A DNA stretch of 64,000 nucleotides from the IMG/VR virus record IMGVR_UViG_3300006802_000092, positions 1 through 64,000 of that record; one strand, 5' to 3'. This DNA comes from a virus. A program made the translations under genes and the position numbers. The notes under the pieces were generated by a model. That model was not told where the DNA came from, searched no databases, and saw only the letters and a program-made list of their open reading frames with translations. Below are positions 5,995-18,967 of the stretch, piece by piece (position 1 is the stretch's first letter; every line of letters starts with the position of its first letter).

Positions 5995-7521
5995 ATGTCT
6001 CTAGATGATATAAAATTTAGTTCTTATGCTTGTGTTCACACAAGCACTGATTCTAATGCAACAGCTAACACAGAGTACAACCCTTTTAAGTCAGATCAGT
6101 ATAATACTTATACGGCTACTACAGTTGCATCTAGAGATGTTTCTTATTCCTCCACAACTGGTAAATTTACTTTTGAAGTTCCTGGGACCTACTTTGTTCT
6201 TTTTGATATCCCAGGTATAGTTAGCTCCGGAACAGGTGTGGAAGGTAGGATTTTTGTAAATACAACAGAAGTTTATACAAGCACTGCACTATTTGCAAAC
6301 AATTCCATCGATCCTAGAAGTTATACTTTTTTTAGCTTAGTTGAGGTTAATGCTGGAGATACTTTAAACGTCACTGTAAAAACGATACATGAAGGGAAAA
6401 CTTTGTCATGTCAAGCTGGTTCACAGATAACTTTATTTAGAGTCAGGGGTGATTATGGCAGCATAGCCTATACAGCTGACAGCACTAGCACTACGGGCAC
6501 AAGATTCCTGGGCGATTCTGACTTTGGCGGAACGATTGAAGCTAAATTAAAAAATGTTACTTACACTGCCTCTACGGGAAAGCTTACACCAGATAATACT
6601 TCAACCTTTTTAATGATGCAGAACCTTTCTGCCCTTACAGATGCCAACACCGATGTTGCTGTGGATCACTTTGCGAATGGTAGTAAAGTAGCAGGCTCTA
6701 CTTTTGGGGTTTACGCTAGCTCTGACCCCAAAGAGACAACTTATGCAATACTTAAATCACTAACTGGAGGGCAAACGGCTGGGGGCAGGATGACACCATC
6801 TGTCGGTACAGCTAATATTACAATAGAGCAAGGCTCATCTTTTACAATTATTGATGTTTCAAGGGATGGCTCTAACCCATCTGCTATGCAGAGCGTTACG
6901 TGTGGTAGCGACTCAAACGCATTATCATCAGGGTCCGATACTACCTGTTTTAGCTCTGCGGCTTGGTCTAGCTACAATCCCACGTCACATGTAACAGCAA
7001 CTGGTATAACTTACACACAATCAAATGGAAGGTTTACCTTCGCAAATGCAGGTAAGTATCTTATTTATTGCAACCTCGTGCTTAATGTATCTACTGGTAC
7101 CACTTTTGCCACAAAGGTTAAGAAAAATGGCTCTTCTACTGTATACACTGGAAACATTTATATTCATAATAGTTTTGATCCACAAGAGAAGACGATATGC
7201 CTCATAATAGAGGCCGATGCTAGTGATTATATTGAGATCACTGCAAACCCTTCTGCTGGAAGCTCTACTTTTGATAAAGATTGTGCTATATCAATATTGA
7301 AAATTGATGAGTTTGACGAAGTGTACGGCGAAATCGCTTCTGCAGATCAGATAGGAGATGACTATATTATCAATTCTTTAAATAGCGATGTCATAGGTAG
7401 ACAGAAGCATAACACAATTGATAGGTCCTTGCCTTCATCGACTGTAATCCCAGGGCCCAGAAACCTAAGGGGGAGAACTACATCTTACGCCCCTTCTTTA
7501 GGTGGTAAGGTTAAAAAGTAA
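5995..7521 (+). CDS. Virion protein with three tandem C1q/TNF-like jelly-roll domains
   Basis: 508 aa with threefold internal repetition. Each unit has a 'S-x-GKFTF-x-GTY' strand pair (residues about 50-65, 195-210, 340-355), then a 'NxSxDPxxxTxxxxxxVxAGD' segment and an 'ITxxxVxxxG' closing strand. This is the order of strands in C1q-like trimerising beta-sandwiches. The C-terminal 60 residues are a tail rich in Arg and Ser (TVIPGPRNLRGRTTS...). Such domains in phages are used as head decorations or receptor-binding tips. ATG at 5995 follows AAGGAT. It lies between the wall hydrolase and the acidic Leu-x-Glu proteins. The exact position in the virion is unknown. Confidence 0.7.
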   Translation: MSLDDIKFSSYACVHTSTDSNATANTEYNPFKSDQYNTYTATTVASRDVSYSSTTGKFTFEVPGTYFVLFDIPGIVSSGTGVEGRIFVNTTEVYTSTALFANNSIDPRSYTFFSLVEVNAGDTLNVTVKTIHEGKTLSCQAGSQITLFRVRGDYGSIAYTADSTSTTGTRFLGDSDFGGTIEAKLKNVTYTASTGKLTPDNTSTFLMMQNLSALTDANTDVAVDHFANGSKVAGSTFGVYASSDPKETTYAILKSLTGGQTAGGRMTPSVGTANITIEQGSSFTIIDVSRDGSNPSAMQSVTCGSDSNALSSGSDTTCFSSAAWSSYNPTSHVTATGITYTQSNGRFTFANAGKYLIYCNLVLNVSTGTTFATKVKKNGSSTVYTGNIYIHNSFDPQEKTICLIIEADASDYIEITANPSAGSSTFDKDCAISILKIDEFDEVYGEIASADQIGDDYIINSLNSDVIGRQKHNTIDRSLPSSTVIPGPRNLRGRTTSYAPSLGGKVKK

Positions 7522-9150: not shown

Positions 9151-9372
9151 ATGACAAATAGAGAAGCTTTAGTAAAATCATTGTTCTGGAGATTTGTTAT
9201 TGCCATACCAGTTGCTCTGTTGTTAACATACCTTATAATAGGTCAGCTCTATAGCTCACTGATTTTAGTAGGAATTACTAATTTTGTAGGTACAATACTT
9301 TATTATTTATTTGATATTTTATGGTTTAAATACTTAGGGGATGCTTTTGGTTTCGACAAGGTAGTGAAATAG
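9151..9372 (+). CDS. Small membrane protein, DUF2061-like
   Basis: 73 aa. It begins NREALVKSLFWRF, followed by two hydrophobic segments (residues about 15-36 and 39-56) and an aromatic YYLFDILWFKY stretch. This is the arrangement of the DUF2061 membrane family (K-x-xx-WR, two TM, YYxxExxW). Function is unknown. The last 12 codons lie inside the tmRNA 5' end, so the reading frame ends within a structural RNA. The same AT-rich composition continues from the HTH gene. Confidence 0.6.
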   Translation: MTNREALVKSLFWRFVIAIPVALLLTYLIIGQLYSSLILVGITNFVGTILYYLFDILWFKYLGDAFGFDKVVK

Positions 9373-9687
9373 GATAGTGCAAGCAGTCATGATGACTTAA
9401 AAAATCAAACAAACTTAGTTGCCAACAATAACAACTACGAACTCGCCTTAGCTGCTTGATCGGGAGGCTGACCAGAGCCTTCTATCCAATCTGGTCAAAA
9501 ACAACAGACAAGTTGAAAAAATCAAAATGGTTACCCTACTTGTAGTAGGTGGAGCTTTTCGGCGCTGGAAGCTGGTTGATGTGTTAACGCCTATACTTGC
9601 TTGTGAGTGAAAACAACACAAGCCAAGCTTGTGGATGACTTGACTACGTATTTGCTTTGGACTCGGGTTCGACTCCCGACATCTCCA
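9337..9687 (+). ncRNA. ssrA: tmRNA (one-piece), tag ANNNNYELALAA
   Basis: Rescues stalled ribosomes by trans-translation and tags the nascent chain. The 5' end GGGGATG (9337-9343) pairs with CATCTCC (9680-9686) as a 7-bp acceptor stem with one G-U. TTTTGGTTTCGAC is the conserved D-loop-like 5' block. The T arm is TCGGG-TTCGACT-CCCGA (9664-9680). Helix 2 forms between CAAGG..GTAGT (9357-9365) and ACTAC..CTTTG near 9642-9658. GACCAGA/TCTGGTC and CCTAC/GTAGG hairpins fill the interior. The tag frame starts at GCC 9421 after TAGTT and stops at TGA 9457-9459. CCA is not encoded (ATCC follows). One-piece form, unlike the split tmRNA of alphaproteobacteria. Confidence 0.96.
9421..9459 (+). other. 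tmRNA tag-peptide reading frame
   Basis: GCC AAC AAT AAC AAC TAC GAA CTC GCC TTA GCT GCT TGA encodes ANNNNYELALAA and a stop. Alanine as first codon and the ALAA end are as in most bacterial degradation tags (E. coli ANDENYALAA). The upstream TAGTT matches the conserved UAGU before the resume codon. Confidence 0.93.
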
Positions 9688-9729
9688 TCCTTAAAATTAC
9701 TCTAAGAAACTAGAAAATAGGTCATGAGT

Positions 9730-9826: not shown

Positions 9827-10123
9827 ATGGAAAGGCGCGCCGAAAGAAGAGAGAATATTAAAAGAAAAATGATGGAGTTCTATAAAGAGCATCCATGTGT
9901 TGATTGTGGGGAAACGGACCCTAGAGTTCTGGACTTCGATCACATCAACAACAAAAAGCACAATATAAGTACGCTTTTGAGAAAAGAATACTCTTGGGAT
10001 TCAATTCTAAAAGAAGCTGCAAAGTGTGAAGTTAGATGTGCTAACTGTCACAGAAAGAAGACTGCTGTGGATCAAAACCATTATACCAATAGGCTCTTAA
10101 ATGAATTTTTTACAAATCAGTAA
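9827..10123 (+). CDS. HNH endonuclease
   Basis: 98 aa from the ATG at 9827 (a longer frame opens at TTG 9770 but the AAGGGGG at 9811-9817 serves the ATG). Zinc-binding pairs CVDC (residues 24-27) and CANC near the C-terminus bracket the DFDHI catalytic segment and the final CHRKK, the classic HNH arrangement. Basic N-terminus (ERRAERRENIKRK). It is a free-standing, probably homing-type nuclease next to the tmRNA. Just before the start lies ATG TAA (9822-9827), a start-stop pair overlapping the real ATG. Confidence 0.9.
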   Translation: MERRAERRENIKRKMMEFYKEHPCVDCGETDPRVLDFDHINNKKHNISTLLRKEYSWDSILKEAAKCEVRCANCHRKKTAVDQNHYTNRLLNEFFTNQ

Positions 10124-10598: not shown

Positions 10599-11954
10599 AT
10601 GGCGAAAAGAACCTACGTGCTTGACACGAGTGTGTGCTTGACCGATGCTGATTGCATCTTCAATTATGGAAACAATGATATTGTTTTACCTTTAAAAGTT
10701 CTAGAAGAAATTGATAAGCATAAGAAAAGGCAAGATAGCGTAGGGATAAATGCTAGAATGATTATCCGCTCTCTTGATGAGCTAAGGGCAAAGGGATCCC
10801 TACAAAAGGGGCTCAGAATCGCTAAGGGCAAGGGCATACTAAAGGTCTCTGGTGGCGATCCAAAGTGCCTGCCAAAGGACTTAGACTTTAGAGTCCCGGA
10901 CCATGAAATAATCTCTACAGCCCTAAATGAAGATACTCTCAACGGCTCAAGGAAGACTGTACTTGTAAGTCGTGATATAAACATGAGAGTCATCTGTGAC
11001 TCTTTAGGTATTATCAGTGAAGACTATACTGAAAATGAAATCATAAAGAGAGAATCAGAACTTTACAATGGATTTTCTACTATTCTTGTAGATGATCAAA
11101 CAATCGATCAGTTCTACGCTGGAGATAAGATAAAGATCTCGGAAGAAGAGAATCCACGTCTGTGCCCAAATGAATTTTTAATGTTGGTGTCAAGCTCTAG
11201 CGAAAAGAAAACGGCCCTCTGCCGTTTCACGGATTACATGTTCCCACTACTACCAGTTGTTCAGTTCAAGAATGGCTTGTGGGGCGTCAGTCCAAGGAAC
11301 AAGGAGCAGATGTTCGCCATAGACCTCCTTATGGATCCAGAGGTGCAGGTTGTGTCCCTAGTAGGCAAGGCTGGCTCTGGTAAGACCCTTATAGCTATTG
11401 CTGCTGGCTTAGAGCAGGTAATGGCCTCTGCTGATGTGAAGTATGGCCTCAAGGAGGCGAGTTCCAGTGATGTTACCTACAAGAGGCTTGTCGTCTCTAG
11501 GCCCGTTATGCCCATGGGTAAGGACATAGGTTTTCTCCCTGGCACGATGGAAGAGAAGATGGCCCCTTGGCTAGCCCCAGTACAGGATAACTTGAAGTTT
11601 CTCACAGGGGATGACCAAACAACTCTTGATGAGTACATGCAGCGCGGCATCATCGAAATGGAAGCACTAACTTACATTCGTGGTCGCTCTATTGCCAATG
11701 CCTTCATTGTCATTGACGAAGCACAGAACCTTACGGCCCACGAAGTTAAGACAATCCTGACAAGAGTCGGAGAAGGTACAAAGATTGTTTTGACTGGCGA
11801 CATTGAGCAGATCGATAATATCTATATCAACGAAATGTCTTCTGGCCTCACTCACGCCGTAGAGAAAATGAAATTCCACAGTATAACAGGACACATTACC
11901 CTCAGAAAGGGTGAGAGATCTGAGGTTGCTACATTAGCGGCTAAGGTGCTTTAG
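10599..11954 (+). CDS. phoH: PIN-PhoH fusion ATPase (PhoH2-type)
   Basis: 451 aa. Residues 1-140 form a PIN-type nuclease domain (YVLDTSVCL start with the first acidic residue; VLEEIDKHK; later VSRDINMRV). Residues about 235-451 are the PhoH P-loop ATPase with GKAGSGKT (about 256-263), RPVMPMGKDIGFLPG, and Walker B FIVIDEAQN (about 369-377), then LTGDIEQID. PIN-PhoH proteins in bacteria are linked to RNA unwinding and cleavage in toxin-antitoxin-like loci; PhoH homologues are frequent in marine phages. Ribosome binding site AAGGAAA. It stands alone before the 11958 promoter. Confidence 0.93.
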   Translation: MAKRTYVLDTSVCLTDADCIFNYGNNDIVLPLKVLEEIDKHKKRQDSVGINARMIIRSLDELRAKGSLQKGLRIAKGKGILKVSGGDPKCLPKDLDFRVPDHEIISTALNEDTLNGSRKTVLVSRDINMRVICDSLGIISEDYTENEIIKRESELYNGFSTILVDDQTIDQFYAGDKIKISEEENPRLCPNEFLMLVSSSSEKKTALCRFTDYMFPLLPVVQFKNGLWGVSPRNKEQMFAIDLLMDPEVQVVSLVGKAGSGKTLIAIAAGLEQVMASADVKYGLKEASSSDVTYKRLVVSRPVMPMGKDIGFLPGTMEEKMAPWLAPVQDNLKFLTGDDQTTLDEYMQRGIIEMEALTYIRGRSIANAFIVIDEAQNLTAHEVKTILTRVGEGTKIVLTGDIEQIDNIYINEMSSGLTHAVEKMKFHSITGHITLRKGERSEVATLAAKVL

Positions 11955-13677: not shown

Positions 13678-14934
13678 ATGACAAAGAAAATTAAGATCCT
13701 AACTTTATCGGATCATCCTATGTCACCTTCCGGAGTTGGCACTCAAACAAAATATTTTATTGAGGCACTTCTGAAGACTGGCAAGTTTCAGTTTATATGT
13801 CTTGGAGGAGCGGTAAAGCATAAAGACTACACTCCACAGAAGATAGCGCCATATGAAGAAGATTGGACGGTCATACCGATTGACGGCTATGGTGATGCCC
13901 AAAAGATCAGGTCAATCATCAGGAATGAGAAACCAGATATCCTATGGTTTATGACTGACCCACGATTTTACGAGTGGCTATGGTTTATTGAGAATGAGGT
14001 GCGCCCCATCATGCCTATGGTTTATTACCATGTGTGGGACAATCATCCAGCACCCTTTTTCAATAGGCCATTTTATTTATCAAACGACTTAATTGTCTCC
14101 ATTTCAAAGGTTACACATGAAATTGTATCGGAAGCTGCGCCAGAAGTGGCGAACATTTACCACCCCCATGCGGTTGATCCTGCTATATTTAAGCCAGTTT
14201 CTCAGGAGGAGATAGACTCCATGAGGGAAAAGAACCTACAGGGCAATAAAGATAAGGTAGTGTTTTTCTGGAACAATAGGAACGCAAGAAGAAAGCAGAG
14301 TGGTTCTCTTGTTTTCTGGTTCAACGAGTGGGCCGAGAAGGTTGGTAGAGACAAGGTGTGCCTCATCATGCATACAGACCCGCATGATGTCCATGGACAA
14401 CCCCTAGAGCACCTTATAGAGCGTCTTGGCAACGACGGTACAATCCTATTGTCAAATAAGAAAGTCCCACCAGAAATCTTAGCTAGTATGTATAACATGG
14501 TTGACTGTACTATAAATATTTCAGACGCTGAGGGGTTTGGACTAGCAACACTTGAGTCTCTTTCTTGCGGGACTCCAATCATTGTCAACATGACAGGAGG
14601 GCTGCAGGAGCAGGTGACAGATGGGGAGGACTGGTTCGGCGTAGGCATACAGCCTGCCTCTAAGGCAGTCATCGGCTCCCAGCAAGTTCCATACATCTAC
14701 GAAGACAGGATTAGTAAGGAGGACTTCCATGCTGCCCTAGACCGTATCTACGAGATGTCAAGCTCTGAAAGAAAGCAGCTTGGGCTCAAGGGAAGGGAGC
14801 ACGTAGAGAAAAACTACAGTTTTGAGAAGTATTGTCAGGGCTGGGTTGATATTATGCTAGAGGCATATGAGCAGCATGGCTCTTGGGAAGAGCGCGAAGG
14901 GTATAAATCTTGGGACTTTAGGGAGATAGTATGA
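13678..14934 (+). CDS. GT-B glycosyltransferase, family 4-like
   Basis: 418 aa. N-terminal SPSGVGTQTKYFIEALLKTG is the usual acceptor-side glycine loop; the C-terminal domain carries DAEGFGLATLESLSCGTPIIV (E-x7-E motif of GT4) and a TGGLQEQV end. It transfers a sugar from a nucleotide donor to an unknown acceptor. First of three such enzymes; 4-nt overlap with the next. Likely transcribed from the 11958 promoter together with the nuclease. Confidence 0.92.
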   Translation: MTKKIKILTLSDHPMSPSGVGTQTKYFIEALLKTGKFQFICLGGAVKHKDYTPQKIAPYEEDWTVIPIDGYGDAQKIRSIIRNEKPDILWFMTDPRFYEWLWFIENEVRPIMPMVYYHVWDNHPAPFFNRPFYLSNDLIVSISKVTHEIVSEAAPEVANIYHPHAVDPAIFKPVSQEEIDSMREKNLQGNKDKVVFFWNNRNARRKQSGSLVFWFNEWAEKVGRDKVCLIMHTDPHDVHGQPLEHLIERLGNDGTILLSNKKVPPEILASMYNMVDCTINISDAEGFGLATLESLSCGTPIIVNMTGGLQEQVTDGEDWFGVGIQPASKAVIGSQQVPYIYEDRISKEDFHAALDRIYEMSSSERKQLGLKGREHVEKNYSFEKYCQGWVDIMLEAYEQHGSWEEREGYKSWDFREIV

Positions 14935-16166
14935 TTAAGAAAGTTTTAGTTAGAGGACCAGCACTAACGCAGTCAGGCTACGGCGAGCACACAAGATTTT
15001 TGCTTAGAGCCCTAAGGGGACAGCCAGAACAGTTTGACGTATATCTCATAGCTCTGAATTGGGGCCAAACGGGATGGCTTTCAGAGAACACTGAGGAGCG
15101 CCGATGGATGGATTCTCTTGTCATGAAAACTCATCAGTACGTGCAATCCGGTGGTCAGTTTGACATGTCAATACAAGTCTCCATCCCTAATGAATGGGAG
15201 AGACTAGCACCTTATAATGTTGGTGTAACTGCTGGCATTGAAACAACCAAGGTTGCCCCTATTTGGCTTGAGAAAGCAAATCAAATGGACAAGGTCATTA
15301 CTATATCTGAGCACGCTAAGAGCGTCTTTGAAAATACGTCCTATCAGGGCATCAATAAAATGACTCAACAACCAATGACACTAAAGTGCGAGACTCCAAT
15401 TGAGATTGTCCACTACCCTGTTAAGACTGTTGAGCATGCAGACCTAGGTATCGAGTTAGATTATGACTTCAACTATCTTCTTGTCTCTCAATGGGGGCCC
15501 AGAAAGAATATTGAGAACGCAATCAAGTGGTGGGTAGAAGAGAACTGGGATCAAGAAGTTGGGCTGATTATAAAAACATCCCAAAAGAACAACTCTATTA
15601 TGGATAGAGAGCACGTTAGCAATAACCTGTCTAAGCTATTAAACGCATGCAGGCCAGAAGGGGCAAAGTGTAAAGTTTACCTTATTCACGGAGACCTTTC
15701 CGAGGACCAGATGCAGTCTCTCTACGTCCATAAGCAAATCAAGGCTCTGATTAACCTTAGTCATGGTGAGGGCTTTGGCCTGCCTATGTTCGACGCAGCA
15801 CGACACGGACTTCCCGTTATTGCCCCTTCTTGGTCTGGGCAGTGCGACTTCTTGTACATTACATATCCCAATGGCAAGAGAAAGGCCATGTTTGCTGATG
15901 TAAACTACGACATAGCGCCTGTTCACGAAGCAGCCGTATGGGACGGGGTAGTCCAGAGAGACAGTATGTGGTGTTACCCACATGAGGGACATTACAAGAT
16001 GCGCTTACGACAGACTAGAAAGAGTTGGGCCAAATGGAAGAAGAAAGCGAAGGAGCTACAGAGGTGGATTCTACAGCAGTTTGATTCTGACAAGCAGCAT
16101 AAGCTTTTTGCGGATTCTGTTGCAATGCCTGAATTTGTGCCCCCACAAGTTGTTGTCAATGAGTAA
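14931..16166 (+). CDS. GT-B glycosyltransferase
   Basis: 411 aa; ATG overlaps the previous stop (ATGA). N-terminal GPALTQSGYGEHTRFLLRAL and C-terminal SHGEGFGLPMFDAARHGLPVI mark a GT4-like enzyme; middle text YLLVSQWGPRKNIENAI is the typical donor-domain entry. The tail beyond residue 350 is basic (KMRLRQTRKSWAKWKKKAK), perhaps for binding a polyanion or membrane. The acceptor is unknown. Confidence 0.9.
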   Translation: MIKKVLVRGPALTQSGYGEHTRFLLRALRGQPEQFDVYLIALNWGQTGWLSENTEERRWMDSLVMKTHQYVQSGGQFDMSIQVSIPNEWERLAPYNVGVTAGIETTKVAPIWLEKANQMDKVITISEHAKSVFENTSYQGINKMTQQPMTLKCETPIEIVHYPVKTVEHADLGIELDYDFNYLLVSQWGPRKNIENAIKWWVEENWDQEVGLIIKTSQKNNSIMDREHVSNNLSKLLNACRPEGAKCKVYLIHGDLSEDQMQSLYVHKQIKALINLSHGEGFGLPMFDAARHGLPVIAPSWSGQCDFLYITYPNGKRKAMFADVNYDIAPVHEAAVWDGVVQRDSMWCYPHEGHYKMRLRQTRKSWAKWKKKAKELQRWILQQFDSDKQHKLFADSVAMPEFVPPQVVVNE

Positions 16167-16998
16167 TATACTATTCATAGCGGACTTCTTTGCAGACCAG
16201 GTGCCTGGAGGGGGAGAGTTAAATAACAAAGTTTTGATAGAGAAGCTTTATAAGCGTGGCCACACTGTTCGTAGATTTAATAGCCACCTCGTTACACACA
16301 TGGATTTGCTATACAATGAGAACATTATTGTTTCAAATTTTGTTAATCTCTCTGAAGAAAACAAAAAAGATCTACAAAATAGAAACTATATCATTTATGA
16401 GCACGATCACAAGTATCTCCCTGGTAGGAACCCAGGCATTTACCCAGAGTACCATGCCCCTAAAGAACATATTATCAATAGACAATTTTATGCAAATGCG
16501 AAGGCCGTTCTGTGCCAGAGCCAGTTTCATGCAAGCATAGCAAGAAAAAATCTTGAACTAGATAATATTGTAAGTTTAGGCGGTAATCTGTGGTCCGATG
16601 ACCATTTGTCTATCTTAGAGGAAATCTGCAGAAATCCGCAAAGACAAAACAGACATGCAGTAATAATGTCGAATACTAAGCACAAGAATACTGCGAGAGC
16701 TATTGACTATTGTAGAACTCTTGGTTTGGAATATGATGTGATACCACCTTTAGAGCCCTCTACGTTCCTTAGGGAGCTTGGCGCTCGCTCTACACTAGTC
16801 TTCTTTCCTGGGACCCCTGAGACGCTGTCTAGGGTCGTCGTAGAGGCTAGGATGATGGGGATGGGTACAAAGACCACAAATAATATAGGAGCTATCCATG
16901 AAGAGTGGTTTTCGAAAAAAGGTCTTGACTTAATTGACTATATGCGTTATAAGCAAGAAGAAATAGTAAAAAATACTTTATCTTATTTAGATAACTAG
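16159..16998 (+). CDS. Glycosyltransferase-like protein
   Basis: 279 aa from ATG 16159; the frame is open further upstream but that part is antiparallel to no family and overlaps the preceding gene, so the ATG with 8-nt overlap is preferred. N-terminus ILFIADFFADQVPGGGELNNKVLIEKLYKRGH resembles GT-B acceptor domains, and FFPGTPETLSRVVVEARMMGMG resembles the donor-binding loop. Shorter than its neighbours and lacking a full E-x7-E motif, so its activity is less certain. Confidence 0.78.
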   Translation: MSNILFIADFFADQVPGGGELNNKVLIEKLYKRGHTVRRFNSHLVTHMDLLYNENIIVSNFVNLSEENKKDLQNRNYIIYEHDHKYLPGRNPGIYPEYHAPKEHIINRQFYANAKAVLCQSQFHASIARKNLELDNIVSLGGNLWSDDHLSILEEICRNPQRQNRHAVIMSNTKHKNTARAIDYCRTLGLEYDVIPPLEPSTFLRELGARSTLVFFPGTPETLSRVVVEARMMGMGTKTTNNIGAIHEEWFSKKGLDLIDYMRYKQEEIVKNTLSYLDN

Positions 16999-17006
16999 GA
17001 GATTTT

Positions 17007-18251
17007 ATGAATATTGGATTTATGGGCCTTGGTAAGCTTGGCCTGCCATGTGCTCTGGCTGCTGAAAGAGCAGGGCATACAATTTATGGATTTGACATAA
17101 GTGAAGAGGTAAAAAACATACTTGATACCAAAGCTCTTCCCTATAGAGAAGAGGGAGCGCAAGAGCTACTGGACAACCACAATATACAATGGTCCGATGT
17201 CCCAGAGTTGGTAAGAAACTCGGAAATCATATTTGTTCCAATCCAGACGCCGCACAACCCAAAGTATGAGGGTGTAACCAGACTCCCAGAGGAGCGGGTG
17301 GACTTTGATTATGAATGGCTAAAGTCTGGTATCAGAACTCTGTCTGAAGAGATAGAACGCCAAGGGCAGGACAAGATTGTAGTTATTATCTCTACTGTTC
17401 TTCCTGGTACGATAAGAAGAGAGATAAAACCACTTCTAAGCAAGCATGTCAAGCTTTGTTATAATCCATTCTTTATCGCAATGGGAACAACAATCAAGGA
17501 TTTTACCAGTCCAGAGTTCGTCCTTTTCGGCATGGATGACGAAAAGGCATACGAGACAGCTTCAAAGTTTTATTCTACAATTCATGACAGGCCAGTGTAT
17601 AAGTGTACAATAGAAGAAGCTGAGATGATAAAGGTTTCTTACAACACGTACATTACTATGAAGATTTGTCTTGCCAATACCATTATGGAAGTATCGCATA
17701 AGATGGACAACATCAACTGTGATAACGTCATGAGAGGTCTTTTCATGGCAAACGAGAGGCTGATTAGCACAAAGTACCTCCTAGGCGGGATGGGTGATGG
17801 CGGTGGCTGCCACCCAAGAGACAACATTGCTCTTAGTTGGCTAGCTAGGGAGATTGATCTTTCTTACGATTGGTATGAGAACTTGATGATTTGTCGCGAA
17901 AGACAAACAGATTGGTTGGCTGAGCTTGTAATCGATGCTCACGGCAGAACTGATCTTCCAATAGTAATTCTAGGGAAGTGCTTCAAGAAAGAGACAAACC
18001 TAACTGTAGGTAGCCCCTCAATTCTGCTCAAGAACATCTTAACAGAAGGCCGCTTCCCTGTAGAGATGTATGATCCCTGGGTTGACTCTGGAAACCCGCC
18101 ACTACAGAGCCCAGCCGTATTCTTTATAGGCACGAATCATGATGTTTTTAAGGACTACGTATTCCCTCCGAATTCAGTGGTGATTGATCCTTGGGGTATG
18201 GACATTCCTAGCGCTCCAGATGTTACGTATATCGCAGTAGGAAGGGGCTAG
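17007..18251 (+). CDS. UDP-glucose/GDP-mannose dehydrogenase family protein
   Basis: 414 aa. GFMGLGKLGLP (residues 4-14) is the NAD-binding loop; EAEMIKVSYNTYITMKICLANTIMEV is the central helix with the catalytic Lys/Asn; GDGGGCHPRDN (about 262-272) holds the catalytic Cys of the four-electron oxidation to uronate. It likely makes a UDP- or GDP-uronic acid donor for the neighbouring transferases. AGGAG precedes the ATG. Length is near the family norm (about 390-450 aa). Confidence 0.92.
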   Translation: MNIGFMGLGKLGLPCALAAERAGHTIYGFDISEEVKNILDTKALPYREEGAQELLDNHNIQWSDVPELVRNSEIIFVPIQTPHNPKYEGVTRLPEERVDFDYEWLKSGIRTLSEEIERQGQDKIVVIISTVLPGTIRREIKPLLSKHVKLCYNPFFIAMGTTIKDFTSPEFVLFGMDDEKAYETASKFYSTIHDRPVYKCTIEEAEMIKVSYNTYITMKICLANTIMEVSHKMDNINCDNVMRGLFMANERLISTKYLLGGMGDGGGCHPRDNIALSWLAREIDLSYDWYENLMICRERQTDWLAELVIDAHGRTDLPIVILGKCFKKETNLTVGSPSILLKNILTEGRFPVEMYDPWVDSGNPPLQSPAVFFIGTNHDVFKDYVFPPNSVVIDPWGMDIPSAPDVTYIAVGRG

Positions 18252-18253
18252 TT

Positions 18254-18967
18254 ATGAAGATTTCTGTGCTATGTCCAACAAGAAAAAGACCACAAAATAT
18301 GCACAAGCTTTGTAGCTCACTGTATGATACTGCTGATAACCCCCAACAGATTGAACTAATTTTTTACATAGATAGTGATGATGAGCAATCAGTATCTATG
18401 TTCGATCTGCTGGATAGCAAGTATGAAAACATAAGCTACGTTTCCGGAGAAAGAATCGTACTAAGTCAGATGTGGAATGAGTGTTGGAAGGTTGCCAAGG
18501 GAGAAATTTATTTTCACTGCGGGGACGATATCATAATGAGAACTCAGGGGTGGGACACGCAAGTTGTGAATAAGTTTAACCAATACGAAGACCATATTAT
18601 GTTTGTTCATGGTAACGACCTCTATCACCCCTTCCCAGGATTTGGTACGCATGGTTTTATTCACAAGAACTGGACTGATACAGTTGGCTACTTTGTGCCT
18701 CCTTATTTTTCAAGTGATTATAACGATACATGGCTAAACGAGGTGTCTGACATGATTATGAGGCATTTCTATGTTCCTATTATAACAGAACATATGCACT
18801 TTGTTGTTAATAAGAGCGAGATTGATGAAACACATAGAGACAGATTGATACGTCATAGAAACGATAACGTAGATGAGCTTTACCGCTCTTTGCGTTCTGA
18901 GAGAGTAAGGGATGCTGAAAAGCTCCAAGAATTTATTGATAATTTTGATGATGAAGGAGAAGAATAA
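18254..18967 (+). CDS. GT-A (family 2-like) glycosyltransferase
   Basis: 237 aa. ISVLCPTRKRPQNMHKL is the family 2 opening strand and loop; FYIDSDDEQ and HCGDDIIMRTQGWD give acidic metal-binding motifs. Short for the family and with an acidic C-terminal helix (EFIDNFDDEGEE). It closes the sugar island; the acceptor could be host surface glycan, phage DNA or virion protein. Stop overlaps the next start. Confidence 0.85.
   Translation: MKISVLCPTRKRPQNMHKLCSSLYDTADNPQQIELIFYIDSDDEQSVSMFDLLDSKYENISYVSGERIVLSQMWNECWKVAKGEIYFHCGDDIIMRTQGWDTQVVNKFNQYEDHIMFVHGNDLYHPFPGFGTHGFIHKNWTDTVGYFVPPYFSSDYNDTWLNEVSDMIMRHFYVPIITEHMHFVVNKSEIDETHRDRLIRHRNDNVDELYRSLRSERVRDAEKLQEFIDNFDDEGEE

Follow-up and report, generated by a model that had tools for sequence, protein, structure and literature searches.

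The 64,000-base window analysed here, part of a linear IMG/VR contig of 70,814 bases, probably carries a working tmRNA gene of the one-piece type, belonging to a T4-like phage. Its anatomy is complete, and related phages show family-wide conservation, covarying pairs and selection on the tag. The sole RNA gene detected in the window by ARAGORN was a plus-strand tmRNA (9337-9687) with the tag ANNNNYELALAA*, and this was the single tmRNA across the whole record. Rfam also gave one RNA family match in the window, RF00023 (tmRNA), at 9337-9690; the match covered the full-length model (positions 1-374) with a score of 110 bits (gathering score 47; E = 4.2e-42). An earlier note on this DNA, made from the letters alone, had proposed a complete tmRNA and advised a search with Infernal or ARAGORN. 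Both searches place the tmRNA, the coordinates given in the note are exact, and all the parts that it named were found (Table 1).

Table 1. Features of the tmRNA gene and its neighbours (window coordinates)
Feature	Position	Strand	Details and evidence
One-piece tmRNA (ssrA) gene	9337..9687	+	351 nt mature before CCA addition; ARAGORN, Rfam
Acceptor stem, 5′ strand GGGGATG	9337..9343	+	7/7 pairs with 9680-9686; third pair G-U (alanine identity)
Acceptor stem, 3′ strand CATCTCC, and discriminator A9687	9680..9687	+	Sequence
Base of helix 2, 5′ strand GCAAGC	9379..9384	+	Pairs with GCTTGT 9627-9632; sequence, Rfam alignment
PK1	9385..9407	+	AGTC 9385-9388/GACT 9394-9397; TGAT 9390-9393/ATCA 9404-9407
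Conserved A at -4 of resume codon	9417	+	A in 30/30 and 41/41 relatives
Tag frame ANNNNYELALAA and stop TGA	9421..9459	+	Resume codon GCC; TGA 9457-9459; ARAGORN
T arm TCGGG-TTCGACT-CCCGA	9663..9679	+	5/5 stem pairs; TTCGANT-type loop
o8783, small all-helical protein, Fis-like helix-turn-helix	8783..9148	+	Conserved upstream neighbour of the family's tmRNA
DUF2061 membrane-protein ORF, 73 codons	9151..9372	+	PF09834, E 2.5e-7, 31.5 bits (cut-off 23.1 bits), residues 7-58
HNH endonuclease gene, just 3′ of the tmRNA	9827..10123	+	phrog_2255, E 1.2e-24
phoH (PIN and PhoH ATPase), downstream anchor of the tmRNA site	10599..11954	+	phrog_2765, E 8e-109; PF02562, E 2.9e-50

The gene order (5′ half, tag, 3′ half) forms one unit in both ARAGORN and Rfam, and is not that of a permuted two-piece tmRNA. 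The 5′ block reads GGTTTCGAC. PK1 is minimal, with 4+4 pairs, and lies upstream of the resume codon GCC (9421), which is immediately preceded by TTAGTT. The tag frame has an alanine resume codon, a hydrophobic end (-LAA) and a stop codon. The bases after discriminator A9687 are TCC; CCA is therefore not encoded, as the earlier note had claimed. The minimum free energy of the tmRNA strand alone was not distinctive (z = -1.3) and is uninformative; such a value is expected for a pseudoknotted RNA. The RNA resembles the bacterial one-piece tmRNA (SsrA, RF00023) in its G3-U70 acceptor stem, T arm, 5′ block, helix 2, PK1, A(-4), alanine resume codon, tag ending in LALAA, and discriminator A. It differs from bacterial SsrA in being phage-borne, in lacking an encoded CCA, in its very short PK1, in having a tag absent from 84,980 species under the scanned patterns, and in the overlap of its 5′ end with a protein gene.

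The contig is a fragment of a T4-like myovirus. It encodes T4-type proteins, including baseplate wedge subunits, with terminase and portal at its end; a late-sigma-factor match was weak. The tmRNA is phage-borne, as the earlier note had claimed. For the upstream neighbour o8783, Pfam HTH_8 (Fis) was matched in 6 of 28 family members (best 4.8e-5). The structure model (pLDDT 82) gave Fis as the top PDB matches in a fold search, at a non-significant E of 1.4; since the fold matches have E >1, the Fis-like label rests mainly on the Pfam matches in family members. Elsewhere in the window, 5995-7521 encodes C1q/TNF/BclA-C-like jelly-roll domains (PF00386, E 3e-8), and its product is probably a trimer that forms part of the virion or binds the receptor. 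A phage sugar-modification island at 13678-18967 comprises glycosyltransferase genes and a UDP-glucose dehydrogenase gene.

A phoH search yielded 80 related loci, in which tmRNAs were called by ARAGORN and Rfam. Of the 51 IMG/VR loci holding both o8783 and phoH, at least 35 had a tmRNA between these two genes, and a tmRNA lay within 4 kb of o8783 in at least 64 of the 80 loci of an o8783-seeded set; both counts include contigs of near-identical phages. Phage tmRNAs have been described before, in 402 of 18,146 genomes by ARAGORN (PMC9004378). The view of the earlier note that they are rare in described phages thus holds overall (2.3%), but in this T4-like group a tmRNA at a fixed position is the rule. 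Three tmRNAs of 434-465 nt (L011:8587-9051, L048:5198-5631 and L071:2885-3322) were missed by ARAGORN and detected by Rfam, indicating that ARAGORN surveys undercount phage tmRNAs. The tmRNAs of the group are mosaic. The window tmRNA and that of locus L017 are 94-95% identical at nt 124-290 and 72-75% identical in the 5′ part and tag; with L005 the pattern is reversed, identity being 87-92% over the 5′ part plus tag and 33% over nt 206-290. These opposite patterns indicate that the tag and the pseudoknot region exchange separately. Locus L007, from another sample and 99.9% identical to the window, begins at window position 9653, inside the 3′ half of the tmRNA; this break is perhaps an assembly effect of tmRNA variants in the population.

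The G-U third acceptor pair (G3-U70), the discriminator A and the A at -4 of the resume codon were each present in all 71 distinct phage tmRNAs (30 in the first set and 41 further). In the first 30, the T stem had 5/5 pairs throughout, and acceptor pairs were formed in 210 of 210 cases, compared with a mean of 190.8 and a maximum of 200 for shuffled partners. Like the acceptor pairs, those of PK1 covary in relatives, with many different sets (GAGTA/TGCTC, GAATA/TATTC, GGGTA/TACCC, GTAAC/GTTAC). The pN/pS of the tag was 0.23 for 13-residue tags (n = 13) and 0.22 for 14-residue tags (n = 9); shifted frames at the tag gave 1.2-3.9. Loci L003-L006 had been found through the tag itself and were left out of this count; their use as proof of tag conservation was rejected as circular. 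Judged from these sequence comparisons, the phage tmRNAs are clearly under selection for function. In this widespread T4-like group, the tmRNA is thus a conserved, selected gene with a fixed place and not a stray host gene, so that 71 distinct tmRNAs with dozens of tags form a large natural collection in which to ask why phages carry a ribosome-rescue RNA.

The earlier note had also suggested that the tag might point to the host lineage, which our scans did not support. When 84,980 species of bacteria and archaea were scanned with two degenerate tag patterns, ANNNNYELALAA was not found: the strict scan gave 0 matches and the loose scan 45, none of which put this tag or a close variant in a convincing host. 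The matches were only unrelated 12-residue tags in scattered phyla, and host assignment from the tag was rejected. The tag ANNNNYELALAA is shared with four other phages, and tags vary across the phage group (ANNNNYELALAA, ANNNAHFDSVRLAA, ANDNVEFDYALAA, ANNNNFVLAQAA and others). No DNA-level relative was found in INPHARED. The nearest named terminase was that of Flavobacterium phage immuto (47.7% amino acid identity). Phage immuto has no tmRNA; the terminase match is therefore just a weak hint that the host may belong to Bacteroidota.

Ribosome rescue and tagging of proteins for degradation are reasonable predicted roles of this RNA. SmpB (PF01668) was not found in 14 phage records, all of them fragments, with positive controls; host SmpB is therefore presumably used, and most likely host SmpB, AlaRS and ClpXP would all serve the phage tmRNA. 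We infer the following course for its expression, processing and use. The tmRNA would be transcribed along with its plus-strand neighbours. Host RNase P would cut its 5′ end, host enzymes would add CCA, and host AlaRS would charge it with alanine; in tmRNAs, alanine identity is determined by the G-U pair and the 5′ end is made by RNase P (PMC3985003). Together with host SmpB and EF-Tu, the charged RNA would enter ribosomes stalled on broken mRNAs, and translation would restart at GCC 9421, append ANNNNYELALAA and stop at TGA 9457. The ribosome would be recycled and the tagged protein passed to host proteases. The likely benefit is that ribosomes would stay available, and the phage would determine the tag, at a time when infection yields many truncated mRNAs.

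A scan of the window for sigma-70 promoters and terminators gave no excess over shuffles and no promoter better than chance, so that tmRNA expression would depend on read-through. One copy of the T4 late-promoter motif TATAAATA occurs 501 bases upstream; it is not conserved in relatives and was discarded as evidence. In one sub-group (L053, L047), a consensus-like promoter (TTGACA, then TATACT) lies 60 bases upstream of the tmRNA, and a promoter of this kind is not evident in the window.

An RNA of this anatomy might instead act as a dominant interfering copy, binding host SmpB, AlaRS and ribosomes so that it replaces or blocks host trans-translation but itself does little tagging. There is a precedent of a kind: a passage of PMC11915505 cites a tmRNA-like RNA of phage DS6A that has no coding sequence and inhibits host tmRNA in E. 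coli. The tag is also unlike all tags found in the scanned genomes. However, a pure blocker would need neither an intact tag frame, with purifying selection on the tags of relatives, nor the A(-4) kept in 71 of 71 tmRNAs, and we regard interference as improbable. Still less credible is a passenger acquired by chance from a host ssrA as a mobile-element integration site: ssrA is a common integration site for phages and islands (PMC9004378, PMC10107115), the phage tmRNAs show mosaicism and this one adjoins an HNH endonuclease gene, but no integrase gene was seen beside it, its position is fixed in a large T4-like family, and these two observations, with covariation and tag selection over deep divergence, exclude a recent passenger.

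The tmRNA is itself of a known type; the new part is its overlap with the upstream gene, which is absent from the earlier note. The DUF2061 stop codon (9370-9372) corresponds to tmRNA nt 34-36. Codon 62 ends at 9336, and the first base of the tmRNA is the first base of codon 63 (frame 0). Among 70 distinct tmRNAs of the group, about 22 overlap the upstream gene, which is one of three unrelated genes: DUF2061 in 4 cases, the Fis-like o8783 in 10 and a gene for a third small protein in 8. In 18 of the 22, the tmRNA starts at a codon boundary of the upstream gene. Our search of the open-access literature gave no report of a tmRNA that overlaps a protein gene.

Because the DUF2061 stop lies inside the tmRNA, RNase P maturation should leave a nonstop upstream mRNA in cis. 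The same 5′ processing that matures the tmRNA would thus truncate the DUF2061 mRNA, at an exact codon boundary. Conceivably, though we hold it doubtful, this serves as a switch in cis: the RNase P cut would free the tmRNA and remove the upstream stop, and the upstream protein (DUF2061 here; the Fis-like HTH protein or the third small protein in relatives) would be tagged by that very tmRNA, its level being tied to tmRNA output and ribosome-rescue capacity. The overlap offers a directly testable idea: the maturation of an RNA whose task is to free ribosomes from nonstop mRNAs would create a nonstop mRNA.

Use of such a switch by the phage has one rival, genome compaction, which is more likely and is compatible with a functional tmRNA. 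Compaction alone, in which drift removed the stop and the 11 added residues do no harm, probably explains the overlap. Abutting genes are frequent in phages, the codon boundary is off in 4 of the 22 overlaps, and frame 0 may descend from an ancestor with a stop directly before the tmRNA, as in L008 and L017. On the other hand, tRNA genes of the same loci rarely overlap an upstream gene (2 of 44, versus 11 of 32 tmRNAs in the first set; Fisher p = 0.001), and the overlap recurs with three unrelated upstream genes. The overlap cases are related by descent and therefore represent few independent events: the first set comprises about five arrangements, of which four have frame 0 (p = 0.045).

The nearest parallel to the proposed switch is E. 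coli arfA, whose stop codon is removed by RNase III so that the mRNA becomes a tmRNA substrate and trans-translation controls the gene (PMC10107115). In both, an RNA-processing cut would remove the stop and trans-translation would control the product; unlike in arfA, the cut in the window would be the tmRNA's own RNase P maturation, in cis. As a complete phage tmRNA gene, the window tmRNA is like those of the OM43 phage Melnitz and its kin, cluster BE2 Streptomyces phages and the flavobacterial phage Calle. Many Melnitz-like phages, though not all (17 of 47 contigs), carry a permuted tmRNA (PMC9004378). Unlike the two-piece Melnitz RNA with its glutamine riboswitch, the window tmRNA is in one piece, is flanked by an HTH gene and phoH, and overlaps the upstream gene. 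Huge phages with both tmRNA and SmpB are also known (PMC7162821).

Related loci contained tmRNAs of unusual size that bear on how little of a tmRNA is needed. Minimal tmRNAs of ~235-245 nt (L275:1595-1829, L276:783-1019, L279, L282 and L291), with the tags ANDVALPMAA, ANDNVALPMAA and ANDNVALSLAA, seem to lack most pseudoknots. A second group of ~470 nt, with the tag ANDNVALTLAA (L289:1500-1973, L295, L297, L305:5051-5521, L311, L292:2322-2797 and L303:2865-3339), scored 79-109 bits in Rfam where scanned. Here, a complete protein gene nested after the tag and ahead of the 3′ tRNA half takes the place of PK2-PK4. This gene has its own ribosome-binding site (AGGAGG...ATG), encodes 63-65 residues (MSEN..GYEIRQGLLQQAQRIVEQNAHM...) and has a pN/pS of 0.13; L063 has a free-standing homologue flanked by tRNAs. 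At the 3′ end of the L292 and L303 tmRNAs, the T loop TTCGATT is changed to AGTCGGTG, and the T-stem pairs are preserved through compensating changes (GCGGG/CCCGC, GAGGG/CCCTC).
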